Positions 428 to 32,176 of a DNA stretch of 34,482 nt are shown here, in pieces (the stretch's first letter is position 1; each line of letters opens with the position of its first letter). Under the pieces are notes generated by a model. That model worked only from the letters and a program-made list of their open reading frames with translations, ran no database searches and was not told where the DNA came from. This DNA comes from a virus: IMG/VR virus record IMGVR_UViG_3300031659_000041, positions 1 to 34,482 of that record. One strand, 5' to 3'. The position numbers were made by a program, and so were the translations under genes.

Positions 428-456
428 GGACAGTCTGCAATGACTGTCCTTTTTTT
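428..456 (+). terminator. Rho-independent terminator after gp23
   Basis: A perfect 8-bp stem GGACAGTC / GACTGTCC with loop TGCAAT is followed directly by seven T residues (450-456). A weaker hairpin (AGTGGC / GCCACC, about 401-419) precedes it. It lies about 90 bp after the capsid gene stop and separates high-level capsid transcription from the downstream genes. Confidence 0.9.
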
Positions 457-460
457 ATGC

Positions 461-484
461 CTAAATAAAAGTAACATATAAATA
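461..484 (+). promoter_or_regulatory. T4-type late promoter(s) for the 508 gene
   Basis: TATAAATA at 477-484 is the exact T4 late -10 box recognised by gp55-RNA polymerase. A variant CTAAATA lies just upstream at 461-467. No -35 is needed for late promoters. The gene at 508 starts 23 bases after the box, so a transcript starting near 491 would have a short leader. Confidence 0.75.
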
Positions 485-507
485 AAGATAAACTATCGGG
501 GAAACTA

Positions 508-786
508 ATGAAAACTTTCGAAGAAATTCGTGAAGCGACCTATATAGGAAATACGGTTGCCCTCAATAAACCTATGTCTGGTGATGTTAAAAAATCTAAA
601 GTGTTTGTTAAAGACCCCAGTACTGGAAACGTCAAGAAAGTGAACTTTGGCGATAAGAACATGAGTATTAAAAAGGATCAGAAAAGCAACAAATCATCCT
701 ATTGTGCAAGGTCTGCTGGTATTAAAGGTGGTGGTAAAGATAAGACCAAAGCAAACTACTGGTCAAGAAAGGCATGGGACTGTTAA
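508..786 (+). CDS. Small capsid-targeted-looking protein, conserved in marine T4-like phages
   Basis: 92 residues, basic, late-promoter driven, directly after gp23. The N-terminus MKTFEEIRE|A resembles the capsid targeting sequences of T4 internal proteins (e.g. MKTYQEFIAE|A) and fits the gp21 prohead protease rule (I/L-x-E before A/G). The rest (KVFVKDPSTGNVKKVNFGDKN, then Cys-Ala-Arg-Ser, then KTKANYWSRKAW at the C-terminus) belongs to a small family I recall from many marine T4-like phages; I know no established function. RBS GGGGAAAC lies 8 bases before ATG 508. Inference: a head-internal or head-bound protein processed during maturation. The cleavage is a prediction. Confidence 0.75.
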   Translation: MKTFEEIREATYIGNTVALNKPMSGDVKKSKVFVKDPSTGNVKKVNFGDKNMSIKKDQKSNKSSYCARSAGIKGGGKDKTKANYWSRKAWDC

Positions 787-794
787 TAAAGTGC

Positions 795-822
795 TTGCAT
801 TCTCATTCTGAATGCTTATAAT
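795..822 (+). promoter_or_regulatory. Class 1 sigma70-like promoter, tail-tube-like gene
   Basis: TTGCAT (795-800), 16-bp spacer, TATAAT (817-822), within the shared box GAATGCTTATAATAGTGT. First of eight closely related promoters in the window. The predicted start is near 829. An ATGAATAG sequence follows at 831, as in two other copies, but here it opens only a 7-codon frame. Confidence 0.8.
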
Positions 823-846
823 AGTGTGTAATGAATAGGAAAACCA

Positions 847-1359
847 TTGAATAATTTAACAGAAAATATTAATCTATTTCAACCCACATCGTTTAACGTT
901 GTCATAGATCGAGAGAATTACTCCAATTTGCGCTTCTTTGTGCAGAGGGTGAATCACCCAGGTGCGGCAAACAGTGCGGTAGAAGTTCCCTTCTCTCGTA
1001 TTGGTAGTGTGCCGATGCCAGGAAATACTATGACTTACGGTTCTCTGACTATGGATATTTTACTCGATGAAGATTTCAATTCTTATATAGAAATGTACAA
1101 CTGGATGCTTAGACTCGTTAACACGAAACAAGTTAATGCGCGTGATGCTTATAGTCAGAGTTCTAGTCCTACAGCAACTTATTCCGACATAGTGATAACC
1201 GCGCTAACAAACTCTAACAACAAGAATATAGAGTTTAAATATGTAGATTGTATCCCTGTAAGTGTAGGGGATGTTTCTATGGAAGCAACTAACTCTGGTG
1301 TAGACTTCCTCACCTTTAATGCGGAATTTAGATTTTCTTATTTTGAAATAGTAACTTAA
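847..1359 (+). CDS. Tail-tube-fold structural protein (gp19/gp54-like)
   Basis: 170 residues. The pattern NINLFQPTSFNVVIDRENY, FFVQRVNHPG, PFSRIGSVPMPGNTMTYGSL, LDEDFNSYIEMYNWM and a C-terminal VGDVSMEATNSG...FNAEFRFSYFEI follows the T4 gp19 tube-protein layout (PNLFQVEI, FQCKATALPAG, MNDEAHDARQKFVDW, VGELQLDWDS, TFEVTLALDYW). Proteins of this fold form the tail tube or its baseplate initiator (gp54). The start is TTG 847, with AGGA at 837-840 six bases before it; an ATG at 831 is in another frame and closes after 7 codons. It has its own class 1 promoter, which is odd for a tail gene and suggests early supply. I cannot say which of gp19 or gp54 it replaces. Confidence 0.72.
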   Translation: MNNLTENINLFQPTSFNVVIDRENYSNLRFFVQRVNHPGAANSAVEVPFSRIGSVPMPGNTMTYGSLTMDILLDEDFNSYIEMYNWMLRLVNTKQVNARDAYSQSSSPTATYSDIVITALTNSNNKNIEFKYVDCIPVSVGDVSMEATNSGVDFLTFNAEFRFSYFEIVT

Positions 1360-1368
1360 AGAGACAAT

Positions 1369-1809
1369 ATGGATTTAGATGATATACTTGGGCAATGGTC
1401 TCAAGACTGTGAAATTGAGCATAAACTAGATGAAGCGTCCCGCAACACTCCCAAACTACATTCTAAGTATCTGGGATATCTCACACAAGCAAAGTTTCTT
1501 CTCAAACGAACCGAAGACAAACAGAACGTACTGCTTAAAAAGAAGTGGTTGTGGTTCAATGGTAAGATGTCCCAAGAAGAAATACGTTTTCTCAATTGGG
1601 CAGACGATCCATTTGATGGACTGAAGGTGATGAAGGGCGACCTCAAATACTATGTTGAGTCTGACCCCGAAATCATTGACAGCGAGTCTAAGGTCTATTA
1701 CTACAAGACAATGATAGAAGCAATTAAAGAGATAGTGGACAACATCAAGTGGCGACATTCCACGATAAAGAATATGATTGAAGCAAGGAAATTTGAGGCA
1801 GGTTCTTAA
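1369..1809 (+). CDS. uvsY: UvsY recombination mediator
   Basis: 146 residues, close to T4 UvsY (137). It helps load the UvsX recombinase onto single-stranded DNA covered by gp32. Evidence: the opening MDLDDILGQWSQDCEID-like stretch, a central SKYLGYLTQAK / LLKKKWLWFNGKMS (T4: SKWLNKHSSIKKE / LKARLDYYSGRG) and the C-terminus IKNMIEARKFEAGS (T4: IKHIQDMRAFEAGK). It lies 9 bp after the tail-tube-like gene and just before the DUF2452-like gene, in the same transcription unit as uvsW. Its partner UvsX is at 23699. Confidence 0.88.
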   Translation: MDLDDILGQWSQDCEIEHKLDEASRNTPKLHSKYLGYLTQAKFLLKRTEDKQNVLLKKKWLWFNGKMSQEEIRFLNWADDPFDGLKVMKGDLKYYVESDPEIIDSESKVYYYKTMIEAIKEIVDNIKWRHSTIKNMIEARKFEAGS

Positions 1810-1810
1810 T

Positions 1811-2236
1811 ATGAAAAAGAAAGCGTTATTAGAATATGGAACGCATCCATCATTCCCCGCGATGACTGTTCCCTCATCAAATTTGATGAACAGCGAAGTT
1901 GTGATGGCATCCGAGTGGTTGGTTGAACGCAAAACCGAAATAGAAAATGAGTTTGAAGCGAAGGCAAAAGAACTCTATGACATGGCAGTCACTACCACAA
2001 GACTCAACTCTGCTATTAAGTCATTCAAACCCATCATAGGGAAAGTCTATTTCTTGTATGAAAGGACAGCAGGGGACGAGTTCGTCAGTCACATTGAACC
2101 CCACACATGGACACCCTCTACGCAACCCTATAAGTATAATGGCATGTTTAAATTAAACTCCAATTCCATATGGGTTCGTGTTAAGAGTACAGGCGGTCTA
2201 CATGACGAAAGGGATTGGCGACACTGGGGGCAGTAA
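1811..2236 (+). CDS. DUF2452-like conserved phage protein
   Basis: 141 residues from ATG 1811, one base after the uvsY stop, with GAGGCAGG as RBS; a TTG at 1778 in the same frame would run inside uvsY and is not favoured. The block PIIGKVYFLYERTAGDEFVSHIEPHTW resembles the core of the DUF2452 family found in marine T4-like phages, here recalled rather than searched. Mixed alpha/beta with a central charged helix (WLVERKTEIENEFEAKAKEL). No function is known to me. Position between uvsY and uvsW suggests a minor role in recombination or virion assembly, but that is a guess. Confidence 0.6.
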   Translation: MKKKALLEYGTHPSFPAMTVPSSNLMNSEVVMASEWLVERKTEIENEFEAKAKELYDMAVTTTRLNSAIKSFKPIIGKVYFLYERTAGDEFVSHIEPHTWTPSTQPYKYNGMFKLNSNSIWVRVKSTGGLHDERDWRHWGQ

Positions 2237-2243
2237 AATCTAA

Positions 2244-3713
2244 ATGAGTAGCAATATAATAACTATTCAAATGCAGAGTCATTCAACTATGGCGATTCTT
2301 TGCGAACCTAATATTCGCCAAGAACTATCTGACTATTTCTGCTTTGATGTTCCAGGTGCAAAGTTCATGCCTATTGTTAAGCGTGGGCAATGGGATGGGA
2401 AGATACGGTTATTCAATACACTGACTTGTGAATTGCATGTTGGACTCTACGCAAAACTCTGTCGTTTCTGTGCAGACCGTCACTATCATATGGCACTCAA
2501 GAAGTCTGCCTATGGATTGCCAAACGCAAAGAATACCGTTGACCATCAAGTTATGGTGAAACAGATTGCATCTTACAAGTCTACGTTTGAACCTCGCCCA
2601 TACCAATATGATGCGATTGTTCACGCGATTGAGCGAAAGCGAGCGGTGCTTTTATCACCCACTGGTTCGGGCAAGTCGTTTATTATCTACAATCTTATGC
2701 GATGGTTCCTTGAGGAATACGAAAGCAAAGTATTGATTGTTGTCCCCACTACATCCCTTGTTGAGCAGATGTATAAAGACTTTGCTGACTATGGGTTTGA
2801 TTCAGAGAAAGAAGTCCACCGCATTTATTCTGGTAAGGATAAGATAACAAACAAGCGCGTCATCATAACCACATGGCAGTCTGTCTACAAACTGGGGCAA
2901 CCTTGGTTTGAACAATTCGGGTGTGTGTTTGGAGATGAGTGTCACCTATTCAAAGCAAAGTCTCTTACGAGTCTTATGGACAAATGCACCAACGCATCCT
3001 ATCGTTTTGGCACCACAGGGACGCTTGACGGGACGCAGGTAAACAAGTTGGTATTGGAAGGTCTCTTTGGCCCTACTAAACAAGTAACCTTCACACGCGA
3101 CCTTCAGGACAGTGGTACGCTTGCTAAACTAAAGATTGACATCCTTGTGGTGGAGTATCCTGAACTCAGCAGACAGATTGTTAGCAAACTAAATTACCAA
3201 GAGGAGGTTGATTACCTTGTTACACACGAAGGACGCAATAAACTAATACGCAACCTCGCGGTGACGCAGAAGGGCAATACTCTGGTGTTGTTTCAGTTTG
3301 TGGAAAAGCATGGTGAGGGACTATACAACTCTATCAAGAAGTTGAATGAAAACTCTTACTATGTGCATGGTGGAACAGATGTCTCTGACCGTGAGGCGAT
3401 ACGAGGAATCGTAGACGGAAGTGATGGCGCAATCATCGTTGCCTCTATGGGAACGTTCTCCACAGGTATAAATATTAAGAACCTACATAATATTATTTTC
3501 GCCTCTCCATCTAAGTCTCAAGTGAGGGTGCTTCAATCAATTGGTCGTGGTTTGCGTAAGTCGGATAACGGAGTAGAAACAAAGTTAATAGATATCGCAG
3601 ATGATCTTCAATGGGAATCAAAGAAGAATTACACTCTTAATCACTCGGCAGAACGAATAAAGATTTATAAGAGAGAGCAATTCGACTTTGACATACATAA
3701 GGTGTTACTATGA
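2244..3713 (+). CDS. uvsW: UvsW ATP-dependent helicase
   Basis: 489 residues (T4: about 500). A superfamily 2 helicase that unwinds branched DNA and R-loops, shutting off origin-dependent initiation and driving recombination-dependent replication. Seen: the UvsW N-terminal domain with GAKFMPIVKRGQWDGKIRLF (residues about 38-57), Walker A TGSGKS (140-145), DECH box (231-234), TTGTLDG motif III region, and the C-terminal motifs VASMGTFSTGINIKN and QSIGRGLRKSDNG (motif VI). ATG 2244 follows the upstream stop by 7 bp. A TATAAATA inside the gene (3467-3474) encodes part of the GINIKN motif and is probably chance. Confidence 0.95.
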   Translation: MSSNIITIQMQSHSTMAILCEPNIRQELSDYFCFDVPGAKFMPIVKRGQWDGKIRLFNTLTCELHVGLYAKLCRFCADRHYHMALKKSAYGLPNAKNTVDHQVMVKQIASYKSTFEPRPYQYDAIVHAIERKRAVLLSPTGSGKSFIIYNLMRWFLEEYESKVLIVVPTTSLVEQMYKDFADYGFDSEKEVHRIYSGKDKITNKRVIITTWQSVYKLGQPWFEQFGCVFGDECHLFKAKSLTSLMDKCTNASYRFGTTGTLDGTQVNKLVLEGLFGPTKQVTFTRDLQDSGTLAKLKIDILVVEYPELSRQIVSKLNYQEEVDYLVTHEGRNKLIRNLAVTQKGNTLVLFQFVEKHGEGLYNSIKKLNENSYYVHGGTDVSDREAIRGIVDGSDGAIIVASMGTFSTGINIKNLHNIIFASPSKSQVRVLQSIGRGLRKSDNGVETKLIDIADDLQWESKKNYTLNHSAERIKIYKREQFDFDIHKVLL

Positions 3714-8151: not shown

Positions 8152-8294
8152 GTAAAGGAAGCAAACGAAGACCAACCACTATCTCTGCGAAAGAAGAAGC
8201 AGAACGATGGGAAAGAGCATTCGGTAAAAAGGATAAAGTGACCAACCCAAAGGTGAAAAGTGACCAACCCAAAGGAAAATATGAAAACAAGTAA
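8148..8294 (+). CDS. Small conserved basic protein (MSKGSKRRP type), 48 aa
   Basis: ATG overlaps the previous stop (ATGA). Starts MSKGSKRRPTTISAKEEAER, followed by WERAFGKKDK. Short proteins starting M-GKGSK-RP with a W...FGKK centre occur widely in marine T4-like phages (recalled, not searched), so this is probably a real gene. Its C-terminal part VTNPKVKSDQPK comes from an imperfect 22-bp tandem duplication (8235-8275). It ends 13 bases inside the following ABC-GNAT gene. Confidence 0.65.
   Translation: MSKGSKRRPTTISAKEEAERWERAFGKKDKVTNPKVKSDQPKGKYENK
8235..8275 (+). repeat. 19-bp direct repeat, tandem duplication at a gene junction
   Basis: AAAGTGACCAACCCAAAGG occurs at 8235-8253 and again at 8257-8275 (period 22). 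The second copy supplies the AAAGGA ribosome binding site of the ABC-GNAT gene (ATG 8281). The 22-bp period is not a multiple of three, so the two copies are read in different frames in the small gene. Confidence 0.9.
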
Positions 8295-9351
8295 AGTAAC
8301 GCCAGACGATATCACCACAGAAATCTCTCGAATGTTTGACTACGAGTTTGATGGCACGACCACCTTTCAACCTCCAGAGATCAGCCCCATTGACCGAGAG
8401 ATGACGATGGGTAAAGAGTGGGGCATAGGTGTTATTGTCGGTCCGTCTGGATCAGGCAAGTCTACCTTGCTCGACCAGTTTGGAAAAGAACAAGCAATCG
8501 TTTGGGATGCTGACAAAGCAATTTGTTCTCACTTTGAGAATGCCACCGATGCAGAAGAGAGGTTGTCATCAGTAGGGTTCAATAGTATCCCTTCATGGAT
8601 GCGACCATACCATGTGCTTTCTAATGGTGAACAGTTTCGTGCTGACCTTGCCCGTAGGATACAAGATGGTGCAGTCATCGATGAGTTCACTTCAGTGGTG
8701 GACAGAAACGTAGCAAAGTCTTGTTCGGTTGCTATCAAGAAGTATGCGACAAAGAAAGGCATCAAGAATCTGGTGTTTGCAACATGCCACTATGATATTC
8801 TTGAGTGGTTAGAACCTGACTGGGTGTATGATACAGTATCCCAGTCCGTTGAAAATCGGAGGTTACTTAGGCGACCAGACATTGAGGTGGAAATCGTTCC
8901 TTGCACCGTCAGCGCATGGTCGATGTTCCGCGACCATCACTATCTCTCAGGAGACATCAATAAAAGTGCAAGATGCTGGCTCGCAATGTGGCGAGGGCAA
9001 CCTGTCGGATTTTCTGCTGTAATTTCTTTTCCATCAGGCAGTGTGAAAAATGGATACCGAGGACACCGCACTGTTATCCTACCCGACTTCCAAGGTTTGG
9101 GGATAGGAGTGAGACTGTCTGACGCTATGGGTGAGATTTACACTTCAGAGGGTAAACGATACTTTAGTAAGACCGCTCACCCCCGACTTGGAGAGTATCG
9201 CGAAGCATCCTCAAAGTGGAGACCCACCAGTCATAATAAACAGGATCGTGTGGACTACAAAACAGCAGGAACAAATAAGCATAGCAAAGAGTTGATGACG
9301 AAACACCAGAACAGGGTATGCTATGCCCACGAATATGTTGGAAACCTGTAA
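8281..9351 (+). CDS. ABC-type ATPase fused to a GNAT acyltransferase
   Basis: 356 residues from ATG 8281 (AAAGGA 5 bases before); a GTG at 8260 would add 7 residues. N-terminal ATPase: Walker A GPSGSGKST (54-62), degenerate signature LSNGE (113-117), Walker B VIDEF with D134/E135, D-loop SVVDR, H-loop H170. There is no membrane domain, so it is not a transporter. C-terminal GNAT-like domain: DHHYLSG (218-224), a beta-strand CWLAMWRGQPVGFSAVI, then LPDFQGLGIGVRL, the acyl-CoA binding loop Q/R-x-x-G-x-G (271-276). The substrate is unknown. Mu Mom, a DNA-modifying GNAT-fold protein, shows one possible role, but relation to Mom is only inference. Confidence 0.8.
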   Translation: MKTSKVTPDDITTEISRMFDYEFDGTTTFQPPEISPIDREMTMGKEWGIGVIVGPSGSGKSTLLDQFGKEQAIVWDADKAICSHFENATDAEERLSSVGFNSIPSWMRPYHVLSNGEQFRADLARRIQDGAVIDEFTSVVDRNVAKSCSVAIKKYATKKGIKNLVFATCHYDILEWLEPDWVYDTVSQSVENRRLLRRPDIEVEIVPCTVSAWSMFRDHHYLSGDINKSARCWLAMWRGQPVGFSAVISFPSGSVKNGYRGHRTVILPDFQGLGIGVRLSDAMGEIYTSEGKRYFSKTAHPRLGEYREASSKWRPTSHNKQDRVDYKTAGTNKHSKELMTKHQNRVCYAHEYVGNL

Positions 9352-9407
9352 GTCCTTGATTTCATTGAAGTTTTAGGGGTTGCATTTGACCCCAGATAGA
9401 GTATAAT
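9349..9407 (+). promoter_or_regulatory. Class 2 promoter repeat, copy A
   Basis: Begins TAAGTCCTTGATTTCATTGA, then AGTTTTAGGGGTTGCATTTG, ACCCC and TATAAT. -35 TTGCAT 9380-9385, 16-bp spacer, -10 TATAAT 9402-9407. GGGGT/ACCCC arms flank the -35 and could be an operator. The TAA of the ABC-GNAT gene is the first triplet of the repeat. Confidence 0.85.
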
Positions 9408-9444
9408 GGTCACATTGAATAAAGAAATGAAGGAAGAAAAGATT

Positions 9445-9618
9445 ATGTCTACAATGCAAAATGCAGCGAATGCACTCTTTGATCGTCTTAGGGAAGAGGG
9501 TAGTATGAATATGTTTGGTGCTGCACCAGTTGCCGAGCAAATTCTGTGCGTCACTCCCATCGTGGCGCGAGGTCTACTCGCTGAGTGGATGGAAACGTTT
9601 GCAGAACGTCACGCCTAA
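9445..9618 (+). CDS. Hypothetical protein, 57 aa
   Basis: MSTMQNAANALFDRLREEGS start; helical throughout (PVAEQILCVTPIVARGLLAEWM). ATG 9445 chosen because AAGGAAG precedes it and the earlier in-frame ATG at 9406 lies inside the -10 box; ATG 9427 (MKEEKIMS) is possible but has no RBS. First gene after class 2 promoter copy A. Its stop sits in another piece of the repeat (TAAGTCATTGA at 9616). No family recognised. Confidence 0.6.
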   Translation: MSTMQNAANALFDRLREEGSMNMFGAAPVAEQILCVTPIVARGLLAEWMETFAERHA

Positions 9619-9645
9619 GTCATTGAATAAAGAAGGGAAGAAGAT

Positions 9646-9825
9646 ATGTCCACAGAATTGAAGATTGCAATAGAGCAGGTGTTCATTGATCAACTCGCAG
9701 AATTGGACACATGTAGTCCATATGCAGTCTATCCATGCGCGGAAGCACAACGAATTATGGTGAAAATAGTGCAAGAAAAGGTGCAAAGTCTCATCTATCA
9801 GGACAATGAGAACCTAAGTCATTGA
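9646..9825 (+). CDS. Hypothetical protein, 59 aa
   Basis: Reads MSTELKIAIEQVFIDQLAEL, then DTCSPYAVYPCAEAQRIMVK and a helical end IVQEKVQSLIYQDNENLSH. RBS AGAAGGGAAG lies before ATG 9646. Like the 57-aa gene it starts MST and is helical, and it has a CxPxAxxPC segment. Its last codons and stop (CTA AGT CAT TGA) lie inside class 2 promoter copy B, so the coding end and the promoter share bases. Function unknown. Confidence 0.6.
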   Translation: MSTELKIAIEQVFIDQLAELDTCSPYAVYPCAEAQRIMVKIVQEKVQSLIYQDNENLSH

Positions 9826-9873
9826 TTTCATTGAAGTTTTAGGGGTTGCATTTGACCCCCACTCTGGTATAAT
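9815..9873 (+). promoter_or_regulatory. Class 2 promoter repeat, copy B (CobT-like gene)
   Basis: TAAGTCATTGATTTCATTGA then AGTTTTAGGGGTTGCATTTG, ACCCCC. -35 TTGCAT 9846-9851, 16-bp spacer, -10 TATAAT 9868-9873, with GGGGT/ACCCC arms intact. It lies 32 bases before the large VWA/HExxH gene and overlaps the stop of the 59-aa gene. Confidence 0.88.
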
Positions 9874-9904: not shown

Positions 9905-12280
9905 ATGGAACAAGTGAACAATACAGAATCTAAAGGTAAAATCATAGCAAAGTTACTTGCTACTGAAAACATCACTGTCATACAGGCAAAAGTTTCCACG
10001 GCATCTTTCAATGTCCAGACGCGAGTTCTTACCTTGCCTATGTGGAAAGATGTTACACCATACACTGAAGACCATTTGATAGGTCACGAAGTCGGTCACG
10101 CACTCTACACACCAGAAGAGGGATGGCACGATGCTGTCGTTGAAAATGACCCTGTATTCAGAACTTACTTAAATGTTGTGGAAGATGCGCGTATTGAGAA
10201 ACTGGTATTACGCAAGTATCCAGGACTCAAGCGATCATTCATTGTCTCATATCGTGAAATGCTGGAGCAAGGTTTTTTTGGTGGCACGATTGATGCTATC
10301 AATAAAATGGGTCTTATCGACCGACTGAATACTTACTACAAATGTGGAAAGTCTGCGGGTATTGAATTCAATCAAGACGAAATGCAATTTATTCCTAAAA
10401 TGGATTCCTTAGAATCTTGGGATGACGTTGTCCGAGTCGCAGAAGAACTCTACGCATACTGCCTTGAAAAAGAAGAAGAAAAACAAGAGCAGCAGCAACA
10501 AGAATCTGATGAAGATGAAGCAGAAGAAGATACTGGTGGAGAAACTGAAGACCAAGATGCATCTTCTGCAATGAATGATGGCGAGTCTGGCGAAAGTGGC
10601 GAGTCTGGCGAAAGTGGCGAGTCTAGTGAATCTGGCGAAGAGTCAGACGATTCTGACGAAGACGATTCTGACGAAGACGATTCTGACGATGACGAAGATG
10701 GTGATGCTTCTGACGGTGGAGACCTTGGTGGAGTATCGGGTTCAAAAACAGACATATCTTCTAAAACAGACAAGGCACTGCGCGATAATATCGACCAGCA
10801 AATGACCGAAGACGATGACGTTGAAGCATACAACTTCACCCTTGACGCAATGGACGACTATGAAAAGTTTGTTGTATCCCACAAGCAAATATTTGCAGAA
10901 CTGAGCGGTGCAAAACGAATTGGAATTTATCCATTCGAACACGAAGAGGGAACCGAGGGTTCTATTCATCGCATGCGATACAATCCTGAGCAATGGGTAG
11001 CAATACAACACACTGGTGGATTGCTTTACAAGGCATGGCAGTCTTCTAACAAGAAAATTGTCAACCACATGGTCAAAGAATTTGAGATGCGTAAGTCTGC
11101 TACAGCATACGCTAGAACTACAGTCTCAAAAACTGGTGTCATTGATACACTCAAGATGAACAACTACCGAATCAGTGATGACATTTTCCGCAAGGTATCT
11201 GTCGTTGCAGACGGCAAGAATCACGGATTCATTATGTACCTTGATATGTCTGGATCAATGTCTAACTACATGTATGAGACTGTAGAGCAAACTATTTTAC
11301 TTGCACATTTCTGTAAGCAGATAGGTGTGCCATACAAGGTCTACGGTTTTACTGATCGTCTGCGTGATGACATATGCAGCGATGAAGATAAGCACCGTGA
11401 ATCTACAATTAACACACTAGGACCGAATACGAGAAGTCAGTGTGTCTTGCTAGAATTATTCAGTAACACTATGAAAAGTGTTGATGTCAGCACCATGTCT
11501 AAGGTTTTACTTTCGCAATACTGTCAGTATGCGAGTCGTGGAACTGCTGAAAAACTTGCGGCATTTGATCCTAACCTAAGACCATACCGATTACGATATG
11601 AAAATATCTATTCGCGTTTGTTTCACCTTGGTGGAACACCATTGAATCAGGCGATTGCTTTGGGAATACCACTAGCAATGAAATTCCGTAAAAAGCATAA
11701 CATTGAAGTGATGAATACTTTTGTCTTGTCTGATGGCGAATCAGTTACTATGGGCGCAAGAGAAGCGGGTAAACGGAACTCAATGAGAATTGGTTCATAT
11801 GCTAATGGCACATTCCCCAGTCAAAAAATAAACCGAGTCACTATTCTCAATCCTCACACGAATAAAACATACCGAGTGATGAAAAATGCAGACGGAAGAA
11901 TGACTGATGAGAGTGAAATGGTTTTCAATATGTATCGCGAGACTGTTGGAGGAAACTTCATAGGCATGCGTATTGAGCAACAAAAATCAACTAACATTGG
12001 ATACCTTAGTGCAAACTTGCGCGGTATCCCTTGGTCTGCCGATGACAAAGACTGGGAGTCTATCAAAAAACAAGGATGGGTTCAGATTACAGATTCGAAA
12101 ATGTATGATGAAGTTTTCATCATTGGTAGCAAGTCACTAACTACCAACGATAACAAAATGGAAGAGGTTAAATCAGGATCGCTGACCAAGGCAAAATTGA
12201 GAACCGTCTTCTCTAAGTCTCAGAATTCATCTAAGAATTCTCGCATGATGCTCACTGAATTAGCGAAGAAAATCGCCTAG
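9905..12280 (+). CDS. CobT-like protein: HExxH metallopeptidase domain plus VWA domain
   Basis: 791 residues. N-terminal gluzincin-like site H61-E-V-G-H65 with E93 in NVVEDARIEKL as likely third ligand. An acidic, Gly/Ser repeat tract spans about residues 185-285. The C-terminal half is a von Willebrand A domain with a complete MIDAS: D447-M-S449-G-S451, T578 (GGTPLNQAI) and D610 (LSDGES). Such proteins pair with MoxR/CobS-type AAA+ ATPases, and one is encoded at 12892. CobT/CobS names come from cobaltochelatase, but no CobN-type chelatase is seen and the HEVGH site points to proteolysis or remodelling of a protein target. Own class 2 promoter. Family placement firm, role unknown. Confidence 0.85.
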   Translation: MEQVNNTESKGKIIAKLLATENITVIQAKVSTASFNVQTRVLTLPMWKDVTPYTEDHLIGHEVGHALYTPEEGWHDAVVENDPVFRTYLNVVEDARIEKLVLRKYPGLKRSFIVSYREMLEQGFFGGTIDAINKMGLIDRLNTYYKCGKSAGIEFNQDEMQFIPKMDSLESWDDVVRVAEELYAYCLEKEEEKQEQQQQESDEDEAEEDTGGETEDQDASSAMNDGESGESGESGESGESSESGEESDDSDEDDSDEDDSDDDEDGDASDGGDLGGVSGSKTDISSKTDKALRDNIDQQMTEDDDVEAYNFTLDAMDDYEKFVVSHKQIFAELSGAKRIGIYPFEHEEGTEGSIHRMRYNPEQWVAIQHTGGLLYKAWQSSNKKIVNHMVKEFEMRKSATAYARTTVSKTGVIDTLKMNNYRISDDIFRKVSVVADGKNHGFIMYLDMSGSMSNYMYETVEQTILLAHFCKQIGVPYKVYGFTDRLRDDICSDEDKHRESTINTLGPNTRSQCVLLELFSNTMKSVDVSTMSKVLLSQYCQYASRGTAEKLAAFDPNLRPYRLRYENIYSRLFHLGGTPLNQAIALGIPLAMKFRKKHNIEVMNTFVLSDGESVTMGAREAGKRNSMRIGSYANGTFPSQKINRVTILNPHTNKTYRVMKNADGRMTDESEMVFNMYRETVGGNFIGMRIEQQKSTNIGYLSANLRGIPWSADDKDWESIKKQGWVQITDSKMYDEVFIIGSKSLTTNDNKMEEVKSGSLTKAKLRTVFSKSQNSSKNSRMMLTELAKKIA
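10580..10700 (+). repeat. In-frame low-complexity repeat in the CobT-like gene
   Basis: Alternating GGCGAGTCT and GGCGAAAGT units (18-bp period, encoding GES) run from 10580, followed by 15-bp units GACGATTCTGACGAA (encoding DDSDE) to about 10700. It makes a flexible, highly acidic linker between the peptidase and VWA halves, and the repeat number should vary between relatives. CobT proteins also have an acidic linker here. Confidence 0.9.
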
Positions 12281-12311
12281 TGAGCGGTTGCGGTCTAACT
12301 ATCCATACCCC

Positions 12312-12370
12312 TAAGTCCTTGATTCCATTGAAGTTTTAGAGGTTGCATTTGACCCCCATTAGGGTATAAT
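12312..12370 (+). promoter_or_regulatory. Class 2 promoter repeat, copy C
   Basis: TAAGTCCTTGATTCCATTGA, AGTTTTAGAGGTTGCATTTG, ACCCCC. -35 TTGCAT 12343-12348, 16-bp spacer, -10 TATAAT 12365-12370. One base change breaks the left palindrome arm (GAGGT instead of GGGGT). After the -10 it matches copy A again (GAAATGAAGGAAGAAA). Together with the 31 bases after the CobT-like stop it fills the gap up to 12404. Confidence 0.87.
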
Positions 12371-12403
12371 GGTTACATCAACTAGAGAAATGAAGGAAGA
12401 AAG

Positions 12404-12634
12404 ATGAAAAACGAAGTAACAGCATACGGTATCCTGAAAGCACTCAAGAGTGCCAAAGCACCCAGCATTACTCGCGACATTGCAATTCTTGCAAACATCG
12501 ATACTACTAGCGAGAATCTTATGATGATCAGAGATGAATTATACGACTTTGCAGAGTTGGGATTCGTGGAAGTAATCTACGACCGACTTCAAGATGGTAG
12601 TGGTTCAGTCAGATTTGAAATAGCAGGAGCATAG
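12404..12634 (+). CDS. Small winged-helix-like protein, 76 aa
   Basis: Pattern: helix AYGILKALKSA, then ITRDIAILANIDTTSENLMM, helix IRDELYDFAELGFVEVI and a beta-hairpin YDRLQDGSGSVRFEI. Helix-turn-helix followed by two strands suggests a winged-helix fold, so a DNA-binding regulator is possible, perhaps of the repeated promoters around it. That is inference from pattern only. RBS AAGGAAGAAAG directly before ATG 12404. It sits between the CobT-like and CobS-like genes with its own class 2 promoter. Confidence 0.6.
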   Translation: MKNEVTAYGILKALKSAKAPSITRDIAILANIDTTSENLMMIRDELYDFAELGFVEVIYDRLQDGSGSVRFEIAGA

Positions 12635-12636
12635 AG

Positions 12637-12795
12637 ATGCATCCCTTAGAATACAAAGTCGTCTATAAAGACTTTCAAAACAATACCCATATTGAAAGTG
12701 TTAAAGGTCACGGAGAGTATGATGCTGAGAAAAAGGCATATGTAAAATTCCATGATTGCATGTTAGTAATGAGTGCAGAGGTCATAACCCTTTGA
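12637..12795 (+). CDS. Hypothetical protein, 52 aa
   Basis: Reads MHPLEYKVVYKDFQNNTHIE, SVKGHGEYDAEKKAYVKFHD and CMLVMSAEVITL. Mostly beta strands, as in a small barrel. AGGAG at 12625-12629, inside the end of the previous gene, is the RBS; the start is 2 bp past that gene's stop. Its TGA lies in the first bases of class 2 promoter copy D. Function unknown. Confidence 0.6.
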   Translation: MHPLEYKVVYKDFQNNTHIESVKGHGEYDAEKKAYVKFHDCMLVMSAEVITL

Positions 12796-12799
12796 TTTG

Positions 12800-12843
12800 T
12801 ATAGGGTTTTAGGGGTTGCATTTGACCCCAAATAGAGTATAAT
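12800..12843 (+). promoter_or_regulatory. Class 2 promoter repeat, copy D (CobS-like gene)
   Basis: The upstream box is diverged here (TTTGATTTGTATAGGG), but TTTTAGGGGTTGCATTTG, ACCCC is intact. -35 TTGCAT 12816-12821, 16-bp spacer, -10 TATAAT 12838-12843. The start region GTTGTAAGAATTGAGAAA is identical to copy B, so the two large partner genes share the same promoter downstream box. Confidence 0.87.
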
Positions 12844-12891
12844 AGTTGTAAGAATTGAGAAACACACTTTAAATTGAGTAGGATATATATT

Positions 12892-14094
12892 ATGAACAAA
12901 GCAGAAAAACTAGTTGTATTGTTGAAGAAAAAGTATGGCACGAAGTCTGTTGCTATTACTCGCAAGCAGGTTTTGGAAGTCGCCAATAAAAATGGCATCA
13001 CCACTACATTCAAAGTCATCCATCCTGATAATAAAATCGGGCATGGTGAATATCACTTTCCTCCTATTGGTGACTTTGCTACAATACAATCAACCACAAG
13101 CAAATCTCCGAAGGTGAAAGTGAAAAGCAAAAAAACTCCAAAAGTAAAAGTTTCGGTAAGTAAAAATATTCAAGAGACTGCGCCAGTAGTTGTTGATCAA
13201 CTGTCAATGCAGACCAATGCATTTACTGAAAATCTTGTGCCTGAGAAAGACCCATTGTTCGTGCCATTCGGTAACTTTGCAACTGTCAAGCAGATTGTAA
13301 AATCTAATATGTTCTATCCTGTATTCGTCACTGGTCTATCTGGTAATGGTAAAACCCTGATGGTTGAACAGGCATGTGCCGCACTAAAACGCGAAGTCAT
13401 CCGAGTCAACTTTACAGTGGAGACTGACGAAGATGACCTCATCGGTGGATTCCGACTTGTCAATGGCGAGACCAAATTTTTCAAAGGTCCAGTCATCACT
13501 GCGATGGAACGTGGCGCAGTCCTATTGACTGACGAGATTGACCTTGCTAACCCAGCAAAGGTTATGTGCCTACAATCTATCCTTGAGGGTAGCGGATACT
13601 TCATCAAGAAAACTGGTGAATTTGTTGAACCCAAAGAGGGTTTTACTATCATAGCAACTGCCAATACCAAAGGTAAAGGTTCTGACGATGGTCGTTTTAT
13701 CGGCACTAACGTTCTCAACGAAGCATTCCTTGAGCGGTATCCAGTAACTTGTGAGCAGGAATATCCATCACCTGCCATTGAGACTAAAATCCTCAACAAA
13801 CTTGCTGATGACATTGGTGTTGATGACCCTGAGTTTATCAAGAAACTGATTGACTGGGGTGACATCATCCGCAAGACCTTTGCTGACGGTGGAGTTGACG
13901 AAATCATCTCAACCCGCAGACTTGTGCATATTGTCAAGTGCTACTCAATCTTTGGTGACCGACTTGATGCGATAGTAAAATGCACCAACCGATTCGATGA
14001 AGAGACCAAGGTTGCCTTCATTGACCTCTACACCAAACTGGATGAGACTGCCAATCTAACGCCAGTAGATGAGATAGCGACTGAAAATGTTTAG
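12892..14094 (+). CDS. cobS: CobS-like MoxR-family AAA+ ATPase
   Basis: 400 residues from ATG 12892 with AGGA at 12880-12883. N-terminal basic region (KSPKVKVKSKKTPKVKVSVS, about residues 74-93), then AAA+ core: Walker A GLSGNGKT (148-155), GGFRLVNGETKFFKGPVITA as in MoxR proteins, Walker B LLTDEID (D214/E215), sensor 1 IATANTKG, and a C-terminal helical lid (STRRLVHIVK). Marine T4-like phages carry this gene annotated as cobS (cobalamin biosynthesis). The CobT-like VWA partner next door fits a MoxR-VWA machine better than vitamin B12 synthesis. Confidence 0.88.
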   Translation: MNKAEKLVVLLKKKYGTKSVAITRKQVLEVANKNGITTTFKVIHPDNKIGHGEYHFPPIGDFATIQSTTSKSPKVKVKSKKTPKVKVSVSKNIQETAPVVVDQLSMQTNAFTENLVPEKDPLFVPFGNFATVKQIVKSNMFYPVFVTGLSGNGKTLMVEQACAALKREVIRVNFTVETDEDDLIGGFRLVNGETKFFKGPVITAMERGAVLLTDEIDLANPAKVMCLQSILEGSGYFIKKTGEFVEPKEGFTIIATANTKGKGSDDGRFIGTNVLNEAFLERYPVTCEQEYPSPAIETKILNKLADDIGVDDPEFIKKLIDWGDIIRKTFADGGVDEIISTRRLVHIVKCYSIFGDRLDAIVKCTNRFDEETKVAFIDLYTKLDETANLTPVDEIATENV

Positions 14095-14374
14095 CATAAG
14101 AGGAAACAAAGGATTCCAAATGACATTTGAGAACGGATACACAGTGTCTGTTCAGTTTGGAGAACACAACTATTGTGACAACTATTCCTTGAAAATATCT
14201 GCGATCGATGTCTCAGATTGTAAAAATGCTGAGACTGCCTTGATAGACCCAGATGGTAAATTTGTAAGATATTTGCATAAAGAGGTGCAAGAAGATATGA
14301 CTCCCGAAATGGTTTTGGATTTAATGAACCATGCGCGAGATTTACCAAAATATGAGAAGCAGAAGTATTGTTAA
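14087..14374 (+). CDS. Conserved hypothetical protein, 95 aa
   Basis: Starts MFSIRGNKGFQMTFENGYTV, then SVQFGEHNYCDNYSLKISAI; the GNxGFxMTFxNGxTVSVQFGxxNYC core recurs in T4-like phages as far as I recall. ATG 14087 overlaps the CobS-like stop by 8 bases. ATG 14120 has a better RBS (AAAGGA), but those bases encode the conserved K-G pair, so the longer start is preferred. The second half has DPDGKFVRYLHKEVQEDMTP. Function unknown. Confidence 0.65.
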   Translation: MFSIRGNKGFQMTFENGYTVSVQFGEHNYCDNYSLKISAIDVSDCKNAETALIDPDGKFVRYLHKEVQEDMTPEMVLDLMNHARDLPKYEKQKYC

Positions 14375-15150
14375 TGATGTATAATGAACCCTGCCTAGAA
14401 ACTATGGGCAGATTGTTAAGTAAAACTGTTGATCTAGTTGTCACTTCTCCACCATACGATAATCTAAGGGACTATAACGGATATGCTTTTGATTTTCAAA
14501 GCATAGCAAAGGAACTTTACCGAGTCACTAAGGATGGTGGAGTAGTTGTTTGGATTGTTGGAGATGCGACAATCAATGGTAGTGAAACTGGAACAAGTTT
14601 TAAACAAGCATTATTCTTCAAGGAATGCGGATTCAACTTGCATGATACAATGATTTACCAGAAAGATAATCCTCCACCAGTAGGAGGTAGTAACAGATAC
14701 TATCAGCACTTTGAATACATGTTCGTATTGAGTAAGGGTAAACCGAAAACATTCAACCCCATCCTGGCGGCACGAAGAAACAAGTGGAATGACAAGAGAA
14801 CTGAAAGAACTAAAACTTTTACAAGGGGGAAAGATGGTGACAAGGGTGTCGCTAAAAAAGTATCACTTACAGGCAAAGTAAAAATCGGCAACATATTTAA
14901 GTATGTTGTTGGGGGTGGAAATAGTGTTGAGTATGGAGTAAAACATCCAGCAGCATTTCCAAAGAAACTGGTGGAAGACCATATTCTTAGTTGGAGTAAC
15001 AAAGGCGATTTAGTTTACGATCCATTTATGGGAAGTGGCACAACTGCTATTGTCGCGGAAGAGAATAGTAGAAACTGGATAGGCAGCGAAATAAGCGAAG
15101 AGTATTGCAAAGTTGTTGAAGAAAGAATGAGAAAAACACTTGCAATCTGA
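14374..15150 (+). CDS. DNA methyltransferase, beta class (N6-adenine or N4-cytosine)
   Basis: 258 residues from ATG 14374, overlapping the upstream TAA (TAATG). Catalytic motif IV TSPPY (S25-Y28) comes first and AdoMet motif I DPFMGSGTTA (216-225) is near the end, the beta-class order. Between them lies a basic target-recognition stretch (RRNKWNDKRTERTKTFTRGK). SPPY is compatible with N4-cytosine or N6-adenine, so the base cannot be fixed. No restriction nuclease partner is adjacent. Likely protects phage DNA; a second methylase of a different class is at 30651. Confidence 0.88.
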   Translation: MMYNEPCLETMGRLLSKTVDLVVTSPPYDNLRDYNGYAFDFQSIAKELYRVTKDGGVVVWIVGDATINGSETGTSFKQALFFKECGFNLHDTMIYQKDNPPPVGGSNRYYQHFEYMFVLSKGKPKTFNPILAARRNKWNDKRTERTKTFTRGKDGDKGVAKKVSLTGKVKIGNIFKYVVGGGNSVEYGVKHPAAFPKKLVEDHILSWSNKGDLVYDPFMGSGTTAIVAEENSRNWIGSEISEEYCKVVEERMRKTLAI

Positions 15151-28708: not shown

Positions 28709-28726
28709 ATCTCCCTTCCCCCTCCG

Positions 28727-30643: not shown

Positions 30644-30650
30644 AGTGTAC

Positions 30651-31532
30651 ATGAATAGAAAATTAGTCACACCAATACGATACCCAGGCGGCAAGTCAAG
30701 AGCAACAAAGTTCCTCATGCCCAAGTTCCCCGATGGCATCACAGAGTATCGTGAACCATTTGCGGGTGGATGCAGTATGGCATTTGCCTTCTCACAAGCA
30801 CATCCCGATGTTCCTGTCTGGATCAACGACAAGTATTACAATCTCTATTGCTTCTGGACTGCACTGCAAGCAGACCCGAAGGCATTTGCTCAAGAAGTAA
30901 TAGACAAGAAAATCCTTGCTGGGTATGATCTCGAAGAGGGACACCGCTCACTTTTCGCAGAGTGTAAGAAAGTATTGAAAGAGTTTGAGTGGCACACCAT
31001 ACACGATATTGGTGTTGCGTGGTGGTGTCTTAACAAGATGTCATTCTCTGGACTCAGTGAGTCAGGCACATTATCAAAGCAAGCATGTGTGTCAAACTTC
31101 AGCATGTTGCAATGCACCAAGTTGGAAGCATATGGTCACCACATCAAGGATTGGAAGATTACTAATCAGGACTATAGCACCCTCCTAGACGCTCCTGATG
31201 ACCGCACACTGGTCTTTCTTGACCCACCCTATGACAAGGTAGGCAAGGACGGAAAATCTATCCTGTATGGTAAAAACGGTGAAATGCATAAAGGTTTTAA
31301 TCACCTCAAGTTTTTTGAGGATTGTGAAAAATCAGCAGCATCGATGCTAGTCACCTATGACTCTAATCCTGAACTGATAGAACTATGGAAGCAATGGTAT
31401 CCTGAATCGTGGGACTTAACATATACGATGCACTCAGGCAAGAACTATCGCAAAGACCAGAAGCAGAGACAAGAGTTGCTGTTGTCTAACTATGATAGAG
31501 AATCACACATAGCAACATTGGATTTTGGATGA
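30651..31532 (+). CDS. dam: Dam-like N6-adenine DNA methyltransferase (alpha class)
   Basis: 293 residues. Motif X RYPGGKSR near the N-terminus, motif I EPFAGGCSMAF, motif IV LDPPYDK, and NKMSFSGLSESG as in D12-class Dam enzymes. T4 Dam (GATC) is 259 aa; the recognition site here cannot be told. ATG 30651 is chosen since motif X requires a start here; GTG 30645 is upstream of the predicted mRNA start. No Shine-Dalgarno is present. The stop overlaps the endonuclease gene. Confidence 0.92.
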   Translation: MNRKLVTPIRYPGGKSRATKFLMPKFPDGITEYREPFAGGCSMAFAFSQAHPDVPVWINDKYYNLYCFWTALQADPKAFAQEVIDKKILAGYDLEEGHRSLFAECKKVLKEFEWHTIHDIGVAWWCLNKMSFSGLSESGTLSKQACVSNFSMLQCTKLEAYGHHIKDWKITNQDYSTLLDAPDDRTLVFLDPPYDKVGKDGKSILYGKNGEMHKGFNHLKFFEDCEKSAASMLVTYDSNPELIELWKQWYPESWDLTYTMHSGKNYRKDQKQRQELLLSNYDRESHIATLDFG

Positions 31533-32176
31533 GTGAAGCATTCGTTTATATGTGGTATGATTCCAAGAATAGTATGTACTATATCGGTTATCACAAAGGC
31601 ACACCTGATGATGGTTACACCCATACATCATCTATTATGGAATCGTTTAAGATTGCACCCAAAGGATTCCGTAGACGCATCCTTGCCTATGGTACGCGAG
31701 ATGAGATGATGCAGTTGGAATCTGACCTTCTTAAAAATAGGAAGGAGAAGTGTTGGAATAAGTATTATAATGTTATTATCCAATTCCCACCACTACCAAT
31801 GTATGGTAAGAATAATCCGAACTGGAAGCATGGATTGGCAGGGACTCCCGAATACGAGGCGATGCGAAAAAAGAAGTATAAGACAGAGAATGTTGAAAGG
31901 TTGCGAGAGGCGAGAAAGAAGCATTCTCTAGAGAATGTTGAAAGGTTGCGAGAGTCGACAAAGAAGTATCGACAAGAGAATCGTGAAAAGATAGTAGAGT
32001 ATCAAAGGAAGTATAGCGATAGGTATAGGGAAAAGAATCGTGAAGAGATACTAGAGAAGAAAAAGAAGTACCGTGAAGAGAATCGTGAAAAGGCGAATGA
32101 ATACGCTAAGAAGCGTTATCAAGAGAAGAAAAAACAACAGAAGGAATGTACATTCATTCCAGTGGATCAATATTGA
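31529..32176 (+). CDS. GIY-YIG family endonuclease with repeat tail
   Basis: 215 residues; ATG overlaps the dam stop. Catalytic module: FVYMWYD...YYIGYHKG (residues 5-24, GIY-YIG variant), arginines at 48-50 (GFRRRILAYG), E64 (QLESDLL). NUMOD3-like DNA-binding motif YGKNNPNWKHG (92-102). The C-terminal half is lysine- and glutamate-rich and built of about five 15-residue repeats (ENVERLRE..KKY). Seg/Mob-type homing nucleases of T-even phages have this layout. Target unknown. It is translationally coupled to dam. Confidence 0.82.
   Translation: MSEAFVYMWYDSKNSMYYIGYHKGTPDDGYTHTSSIMESFKIAPKGFRRRILAYGTRDEMMQLESDLLKNRKEKCWNKYYNVIIQFPPLPMYGKNNPNWKHGLAGTPEYEAMRKKKYKTENVERLREARKKHSLENVERLRESTKKYRQENREKIVEYQRKYSDRYREKNREEILEKKKKYREENREKANEYAKKRYQEKKKQQKECTFIPVDQY
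31886..31954 (+). repeat. 45-bp tandem repeat in the endonuclease gene
   Basis: A 24-base stretch starting GAGAATGTTGAAAGG occurs at 31886-31909 and again at 31931-31954, period 45 (15 codons). Further diverged copies (GAGAATCGTGAAAAG) follow at 31976. The near identity of the first two shows recent duplication. Confidence 0.9.

Follow-up and report, generated by a model that had tools for sequence, protein, structure and literature searches.

A pair of neighbouring genes in a 34.5-kb fragment of a marine T4-like phage (IMG/VR record IMGVR_UViG_3300031659_000041, whose whole stretch of 34,482 nucleotides is here called the window) encodes a CobT-like protein of 791 residues, in which a zincin-like N-terminal domain is joined to a von Willebrand factor A (VWA) domain with a metal-ion-dependent adhesion site (MIDAS), and an AAA+ ATPase of the MoxR/CobS type. 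We propose that the two genes probably encode one AAA+ protein-remodelling machine that acts early to middle in infection from sigma70-type promoters, and we hold with fair confidence that the pair serves remodelling or proteolysis rather than chelation; that it also cuts peptide bonds, as its N-terminal motifs suggest, is a reading that we favour only slightly. Judging from its sequence, this would be a real and widespread phage machine that has been mis-labelled: 'cobS' is a core gene of cyanophages and is counted in many marine virus surveys as an auxiliary metabolic gene for vitamin B12. If the pair is indeed a protein-remodelling or proteolytic machine, inferences about B12 that are based on cobS are wrong, and one of the commonest unexplained gene pairs of marine phages becomes testable.

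Conservation and predicted fold of the two proteins

In PHROG profile comparisons the larger protein belongs to phrog_459, labelled 'peptidase' (E 1.7e-175), and the ATPase to phrog_249, labelled 'porphyrin biosynthesis' (E 2e-121), two families that are common in cyanophages and pelagiphages. Profile searches of Pfam and NCBIfam gave no name to the former; the latter matched AAA_5 (1.2e-19) and AAA_3 (5.6e-8) in Pfam and carries the Walker A motif GLSGNGKT and a Walker B region, LLTDE. PADLOC matched neither of them. Both open reading frames lie where a preliminary description of this DNA had drawn them, and so does Walker A, at residues 148-155, given a start that is most likely the ATG at 12892 rather than the TTG at 12874. 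Matches to a 'CobS' of Staphylococcus phages (234 records, about 25% identity) belong to another AAA+ family and were excluded. The principal features of the pair are the following:

9905..12280, plus strand: CobT-like protein, 791 residues, with zincin-like N-domain, acidic linker and VWA/MIDAS domain (phrog_459 'peptidase')
9938..10474, plus strand: predicted N-terminal zincin-like domain, residues 12-190 (AlphaFold2 predicted local distance difference test score, pLDDT, of 91 over residues 1-200; fold matches mainly to zinc metalloproteases)
10085..10099, plus strand: HEVGH, residues 61-65 (H61, E62 and H65 invariant, 64/64)
10181..10186, plus strand: E93-D94 within NVVEDARIE, the first a candidate third metal ligand and the second the residue next to it, in a gluzincin pattern (N90, E93, D94 and R96 invariant, 64/64)
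10502..10759, plus strand: acidic linker of Ser/Gly/Glu/Asp repeats (predicted to be disordered), residues about 200-285
11210..12277, plus strand: VWA domain, residues 436-791, MIDAS D447/S449/S451, T578 and D610 (invariant in 64 relatives; best structural matches the Midasin MIDAS and the NorD VWA)
12892..14094, plus strand: MoxR/CobS-type AAA+ ATPase, 400 residues (phrog_249; Walker A 13333-13356, LLTDE 13522-13536)

Across 64 relatives of the CobT-like protein that are 27-59% identical to it, part of which were retrieved with a pattern containing HExxH, the residues H61, E62, H65, N90, E93, D94, R96, D447, S449, S451, T578 and D610 do not vary; in an earlier set, retrieved with patterns unrelated to HExxH, all 24 loci that cover the site have HEVGH. 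The downstream glutamate expected beside an HExxH site is E93, which stands 28 residues past H65, is invariant in 64/64 and opens the motif EDARIE (93-98), and the MIDAS begins with DMSGS (447-451). The HEVGH site, the full MIDAS and the acidic repeat linker listed in the preliminary description are thus all real, and loss of the first two in close relatives, which it had named as grounds for giving up its reading, was not seen.

Predicted structures point in the same direction. The full-length AlphaFold2 model of the CobT-like protein has a mean pLDDT of 75.5; most of the N-domain and the VWA core score 80-96, and the linker is disordered. Compared with solved structures, the VWA model scores best against the MIDAS of Midasin with its UBL ligand (8ql1; Z 16.2, 218 residues aligned, 3.1 A) and the VWA domain of NorD bound to NorQ (9qh6; Z 15.1, 259 aligned, 4.8 A), and lower against generic VWA domains (Z about 11-12), so that the predicted fold is that of a MoxR partner; likewise, the strongest solved relatives of the ATPase are Midasin, CobS and NorQ. 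The N-domain, modelled alone (pLDDT 91), matches Ste24, ArdC, BlaR1, abylysin, BepA, ZMPSTE24, selecase and IrrE. Almost every one of these is a zinc metalloprotease or a relative of one, but each match reaches only Z 5-6, and the putative zincin fold is therefore supported at most by the consistency of this list, not by any single score. Profile searches against the sequences of solved structures returned only chance matches for the N-domain; with the full-length protein, all that matched was CobT, through its acidic linker, and other proteins of acidic composition. CobT itself (9uka) is not among the fold matches, which is uninformative since 9uka may not be in that library. With the HExxH/E and MIDAS residues kept and the VWA domain matching Midasin and NorD, the proposal that this is a MoxR-VWA pair whose zincin-like site is intact is supported.

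Linkage, promoters and divergence

The two genes travel together, and this linkage is as strong a sign as the conservation of the residues. A CobS gene lies within 5 kb of the CobT-like gene in 58 of the 60 dereplicated loci with enough flank, 56 times downstream on the same strand, and since a few contigs (L018, L116, L117, L130) show other arrangements of the pair, this linkage is not merely an inherited order. Counted by name rather than checked record by record, the two genes occur in identical numbers of Synechococcus (365), Cyanophage (61) and Prochlorococcus (24) entries, the figures for DNA polymerase being 374, 61 and 24. The gene cobS is missing from most cluster C cyanophages (PMC10665884), and in phage C48C1, whose polymerase is the best-scoring among the polymerase relatives listed, gp46 is directly followed by gp45 at an empty junction; the pair can hence be missing as a whole, and it is gained or lost as a unit. 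A 188-kb contig (L122) in the assembly of an isolate of Nonlabens xiamenensis has the pair together with gp55, gp47, gp46 and gp44, and so resembles a contig of a T4-like phage, perhaps one in the carrier state.

In the window the gene order is tail tube, UvsY, UvsW, gp55, gp47, gp46, the pair, gp45, gp44, gp62, RegA, gp43, UvsX and gp41, and gp46 upstream together with gp45 downstream of the pair recurs in 59/137 loci, many short contigs included. The matching promoters that had been noted before the two genes proved to belong to a 96-nt repeat family with TTGCAT, 16 nt and TATAAT, which precedes the CobT-like gene, the ATPase gene and both groups of small open reading frames (ORFs):

9376..9407, plus strand: D1-type promoter copy 1 (GGGGTTGCATTTGACCCC, TATAAT), upstream of the small ORF 9406-9618
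9406..9825, plus strand: two small ORFs, 70 and 59 residues, under a D1-type promoter (homologues of the 59-residue ORF in L001 and L011)
9842..9873, plus strand: D1-type promoter copy 2, immediately before the CobT-like gene; also conserved in L001 and L011
12339..12370, plus strand: D1-type promoter copy 3, upstream of the small ORFs 12404-12634 and 12637-12795
12404..12795, plus strand: two small ORFs, 76 and 52 residues, between the CobT-like and ATPase genes (homologues of the 76-residue ORF in L001 and L011)
12812..12843, plus strand: D1-type promoter copy 4, immediately before the ATPase gene

The 18-bp core GGGGTTGCATTTGACCCC is exact at 9376-9393, 9842-9859 and 12812-12829 and has one mismatch at 12339-12356, against 0.01 occurrences expected by chance. 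It spans the -35 box as an imperfect inverted repeat, possibly an operator, and occurs exactly on very few IMG/VR contigs, among them both close relatives of the window (L001 and L011) at the same places. The window's general sigma70-like promoter repeat (D2, 7 copies) is a different family from D1, of which a fifth and weaker copy lies at 28722. The four small ORFs have no family match in profile searches. Over the loci compared, 25/79 have a sigma70-type promoter no more than 150 bp ahead of the CobT-like gene, as compared to 3.0 in shuffles, and 1/79 has a late TATAAATA box there, as compared to 1.6. Promoter type and gene neighbourhood, both read from sequence, suggest that the pair is expressed in the early or middle phase and does not serve late head assembly; the papers searched give neither the time course of its expression nor virion proteome data on it. 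Sigma70-type promoters in a setting of replication genes would probably mean early-to-middle action on a host protein or a protein of replication or transcription, and, given neighbours such as a recombination nuclease, the sliding clamp and the late sigma factor, a target in replication or transcription, of phage or host, is plausible.

A further trait of the pair is its rapid divergence. Between close relatives, gp44, gp45, gp46 and gp62 are 90-98% identical, the ATPase 81-83% and the CobT-like protein only 57-61%, with a nonsynonymous divergence (dN) of 0.33-0.36 for the CobT-like gene versus 0.01-0.06 for replication genes. Over 3515 locus pairs, those with replication genes 75-85% identical have CobT-like proteins at 57% and CobS at 76%, and these two comparisons rule out an equal rate of change for the pair and its neighbours. 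Most of the variation falls in inserts beside the MIDAS: the variable segments, 485-570 and 613-668, adjoin the MIDAS loops of T578 and D610, and the metal-site segments are the most conserved part of the protein. A diversifying target face on a fixed motor and fixed metal sites would fit a changing target better than it would a conserved host CobN.

Several other features of the window deserve mention. Adjoining the pair, 8260-9351 encodes a fusion of an ABC-type P-loop ATPase with a GNAT acetyltransferase domain; it falls in phrog_11143, a family of unknown function, and is 92% conserved in L011. The intervals 14368-15150 and 30645-31532 each encode a DNA methyltransferase of the orphan/type II kind, the first being 97% identical in L001 versus only 57-83% for the neighbouring pair, and an ORF of 215 residues at 31529-32176 contains imperfect 45-nt tandem repeats (31887-32092) that are rich in E, N, R and K.

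A proposed remodelling machine and its alternatives

We picture the MoxR/CobS-type ATPase as a ring motor and the CobT-like protein as its adaptor in a common complex, expressed together with the replication genes from sigma70-type promoters. The VWA/MIDAS face would bind an acidic residue on the target; the ring, as in Midasin and NorQD, would couple ATP hydrolysis to pulling on the MIDAS-held target; and the zincin-like domain, tethered through the long acidic linker, would, to judge by its motif, cut the target or a part of it exposed by the motor. That the target derives from the host is somewhat doubtful. A fuller version, in which a core pair of marine T4-like phages is an early AAA+ metalloprotease whose diversifying MIDAS face captures and cuts host proteins (perhaps of defence or transcription), with CobT as a branch that lost the catalytic site, is put forward as a tentative proposal only.

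How far the pair is removed from cobaltochelatase is best seen from the genuine alphaproteobacterial CobT (25 loci collected, 20 used). A profile comparison reveals a remote relation in the N-domain (probability 88, E 3.1e-6); the direct score of the N-domain alone is weak (E 0.013), and the bacterial protein of Desulfacinum (L138) bridges the two, matching the phage profile at 1e-9 and genuine CobT, along about 500 columns, at 3.2e-15. None of the 20 genuine proteins keeps HExxH, the aligned positions being A/S/Q/G, aromatic or aliphatic, and R/K/Q; they do retain the equivalents of E93 (19/20), R96 and E98. The site is kept as HECYH in ICP2, HEVAH in SSU5, HEAGH in CRP-810, HEVGH in RHph_N1_10, HEAGH in Desulfacinum and HEAAH in Succinatimonas, and all of these except ICP2 also keep the downstream ED pair; HExxH is present, too, in the CobT-like proteins of L137 and L138. 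By these alignments the phage N-domain is distantly homologous to that of genuine CobT, in which HExxH appears to have been lost, and both names would be half right, the protein being related to CobT and bearing a peptidase-like site that CobT lacks. Such a loss suggests how an accessory subunit of a metal chelatase arose. The CobT-like protein of Pseudomonas phage nickie (L181, 1340-3424) has SEISK at the HExxH site and keeps the VWA motif and a neighbouring CobS-like ATPase, apparently a natural loss of the putative active site. In Desulfacinum, whose genome has no CobN, a MoxR ATPase, a middle ORF and the HEAGH CobT-like protein lie in a row (L138, 5766-9494); genes for a tyrosine recombinase and a primase-like protein close by hint at a mobile element.

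These relationships bear on the proposal by Liu et al. 2021 (PMC8651126) and many papers on auxiliary metabolic genes that the pair replaces or boosts host CobST, hijacks host CobN and raises vitamin B12, which we consider very unlikely. It draws support from the N-domain link to CobT, from the match of the ATPase to the CobS equivalog TIGR01650 (E 4.7e-22) and from one cyanobacterial genome with two CobN-family proteins, and a host CobN could still serve; yet that match reaches only 78.6 bits against a cut-off of 558.55, the CobT profile PF06213 has no match in the window and matches 2/64 relatives weakly (best E 0.037), the invariant HExxH/E/D site is missing from all 20 genuine CobT, and a small tree sets the marine phage ATPases as a clade apart from chelatase CobS (support 0.97). 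As had been stated at the outset, the window has no chelatase large subunit (no PF02514 match to CobN), and because it is only a 34.5-kb fragment, CobN was also sought in complete relatives, where its discovery would have favoured chelation: it is absent from P-SSM2, Syn19, DLP_6, vB_OspM_OC, HTVC008M and Mosig, with control genomes positive, from five long viral contigs, and from the Nonlabens genome (G003) that holds the pair-bearing contig L122. Moreover, the ribonucleotide reductase of P-HM1 is annotated as class Ia, and enzymes of this class need no B12. A protein-remodelling or proteolytic machine is thus better supported than chelation. The earlier separation of the pair from cobalamin synthesis stands as regards the missing CobN and the intact HExxH, and fails insofar as it implied freedom from CobT ancestry.

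The two remaining alternatives concern what is remodelled and how. T4-type heads require proteolytic maturation, and a chaperone or protease that folds or trims structural proteins in virion assembly would have precedents in the proposal of Iyer et al. 2021 for the jumbo-phage MoxR-vWA pair and in the reported role of p618/p892 in the extracellular tails of Acidianus two-tailed virus (as cited in PMC7824862 and PMC7159879); nevertheless the pair lies between gp46 and gp45 amid genes of replication and late transcription, its promoters are sigma70-type and not late, the published jumbo-phage pair is a different family, and C48C1 and most cluster C cyanophages build virions without the pair or cobS, so that we regard this role as unlikely. 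Rather unlikely, too, is that the N-domain binds metal or is a scaffolding relic and that the pair is a pure remodeller without proteolysis. MoxR-VWA systems such as NorQD remodel without cutting, and genuine CobT and nickie retain the architecture, which hence survives without the HExxH site; against this, the H, E, H, E, D and N residues are invariant over 64 diverged relatives while other parts vary quickly, and the general-base glutamate (E62) would not be needed for metal binding alone.

Caution is nonetheless in order, as a number of observations weigh against an early proteolytic machine with a diversifying target face. Part of the conservation set was collected through HExxH itself, and, taken one by one, the fold matches of the N-domain score poorly (Foldseek E 0.1 or worse). 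Synonymous divergence (dS) of the CobT-like gene is likewise raised, 1.5-1.6 versus 0.3-1.0, so that allelic exchange rather than selection explains part of the divergence, and P-HM1 and P-HM2, whose CobT-like proteins are 95% identical, show no fast divergence. Finally, the distant homology of the N-domain to CobT makes a chelatase-like remodelling of another large subunit conceivable. Sullivan et al. mention diverged 'peptidases' in P-HM1/P-HM2 (T4-GCs 573/452); these are not the gene of the present analysis, which is T4-GC 146.

Comparison with known systems

The nearest counterparts are the pairs of T4-like cyanophages and pelagiphages (Kyanoviridae), with the same two families, gene order and gp46-gp45 site; identity to those isolates is about 30% for the CobT-like protein of the window and 55-70% for its ATPase, and in the window small ORFs and a private promoter family lie between the two genes. 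Aerobic cobaltochelatase CobS/CobT (PDB 9uka family) shares a MoxR-type ATPase and a VWA/MIDAS protein with an acidic linker, but has the order CobS-CobT (in L141) and works with CobN, which the phages lack.

The MoxR/dynein-related AAA+ motors with a MIDAS domain, NorQ-NorD and Midasin (MDN1/Rea1), provide the best structural and ATPase matches and differ in having no zincin domain; their targets are NO reductase and pre-60S ribosome factors, respectively. The general concept of a MoxR, metallopeptidase and VWA system is already published for another phage pair: Iyer et al. 2021 predicted that group 2.2 jumbo phages encode a chaperone pair, MoxR-vWA, with a metallopeptidase at the N-terminus, and suggested that it serves virion assembly (PMC7824862). 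In their example, Agrobacterium jumbo phage Atu_ph07 (ASV44729.1/ASV44728.2), a MoxR-type ATPase likewise stands beside a metallopeptidase-VWA fusion, of the DUF2201_N/DUF2201 family, however (phrog_1314/phrog_1297); hhalign between the window pair and these proteins gave a probability of 4.6 with only the DxSGS motif aligned, and BLASTP E values of 0.1 or worse. The Atu_ph07 protein at 454-3070 (L179) falls in phrog_1314, labelled 'HNH endonuclease', and matches a DUF2201 metallopeptidase-like/VWA protein; the label looks wrong. New here, and not found in the openly licensed literature searched, are the application to the phrog_459/phrog_249 family, the comparison with CobT, the promoter type and the pattern of divergence. 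Also new are the place of the pair among replication and late-transcription genes and its gain or loss as one block.

A further comparison is with the CobT-like proteins encoded by ICP2, SSU5, Roseobacter phage CRP-810, Rhizobium phages and Desulfacinum (L138), which have, like the window, HExxH with a CobS/MoxR ATPase gene nearby and in most cases N-x-x-E-D-x-x-I-E-R or a close variant; they differ in forming a second branch, closer to genuine CobT, and in belonging to other phage families and genomic positions.

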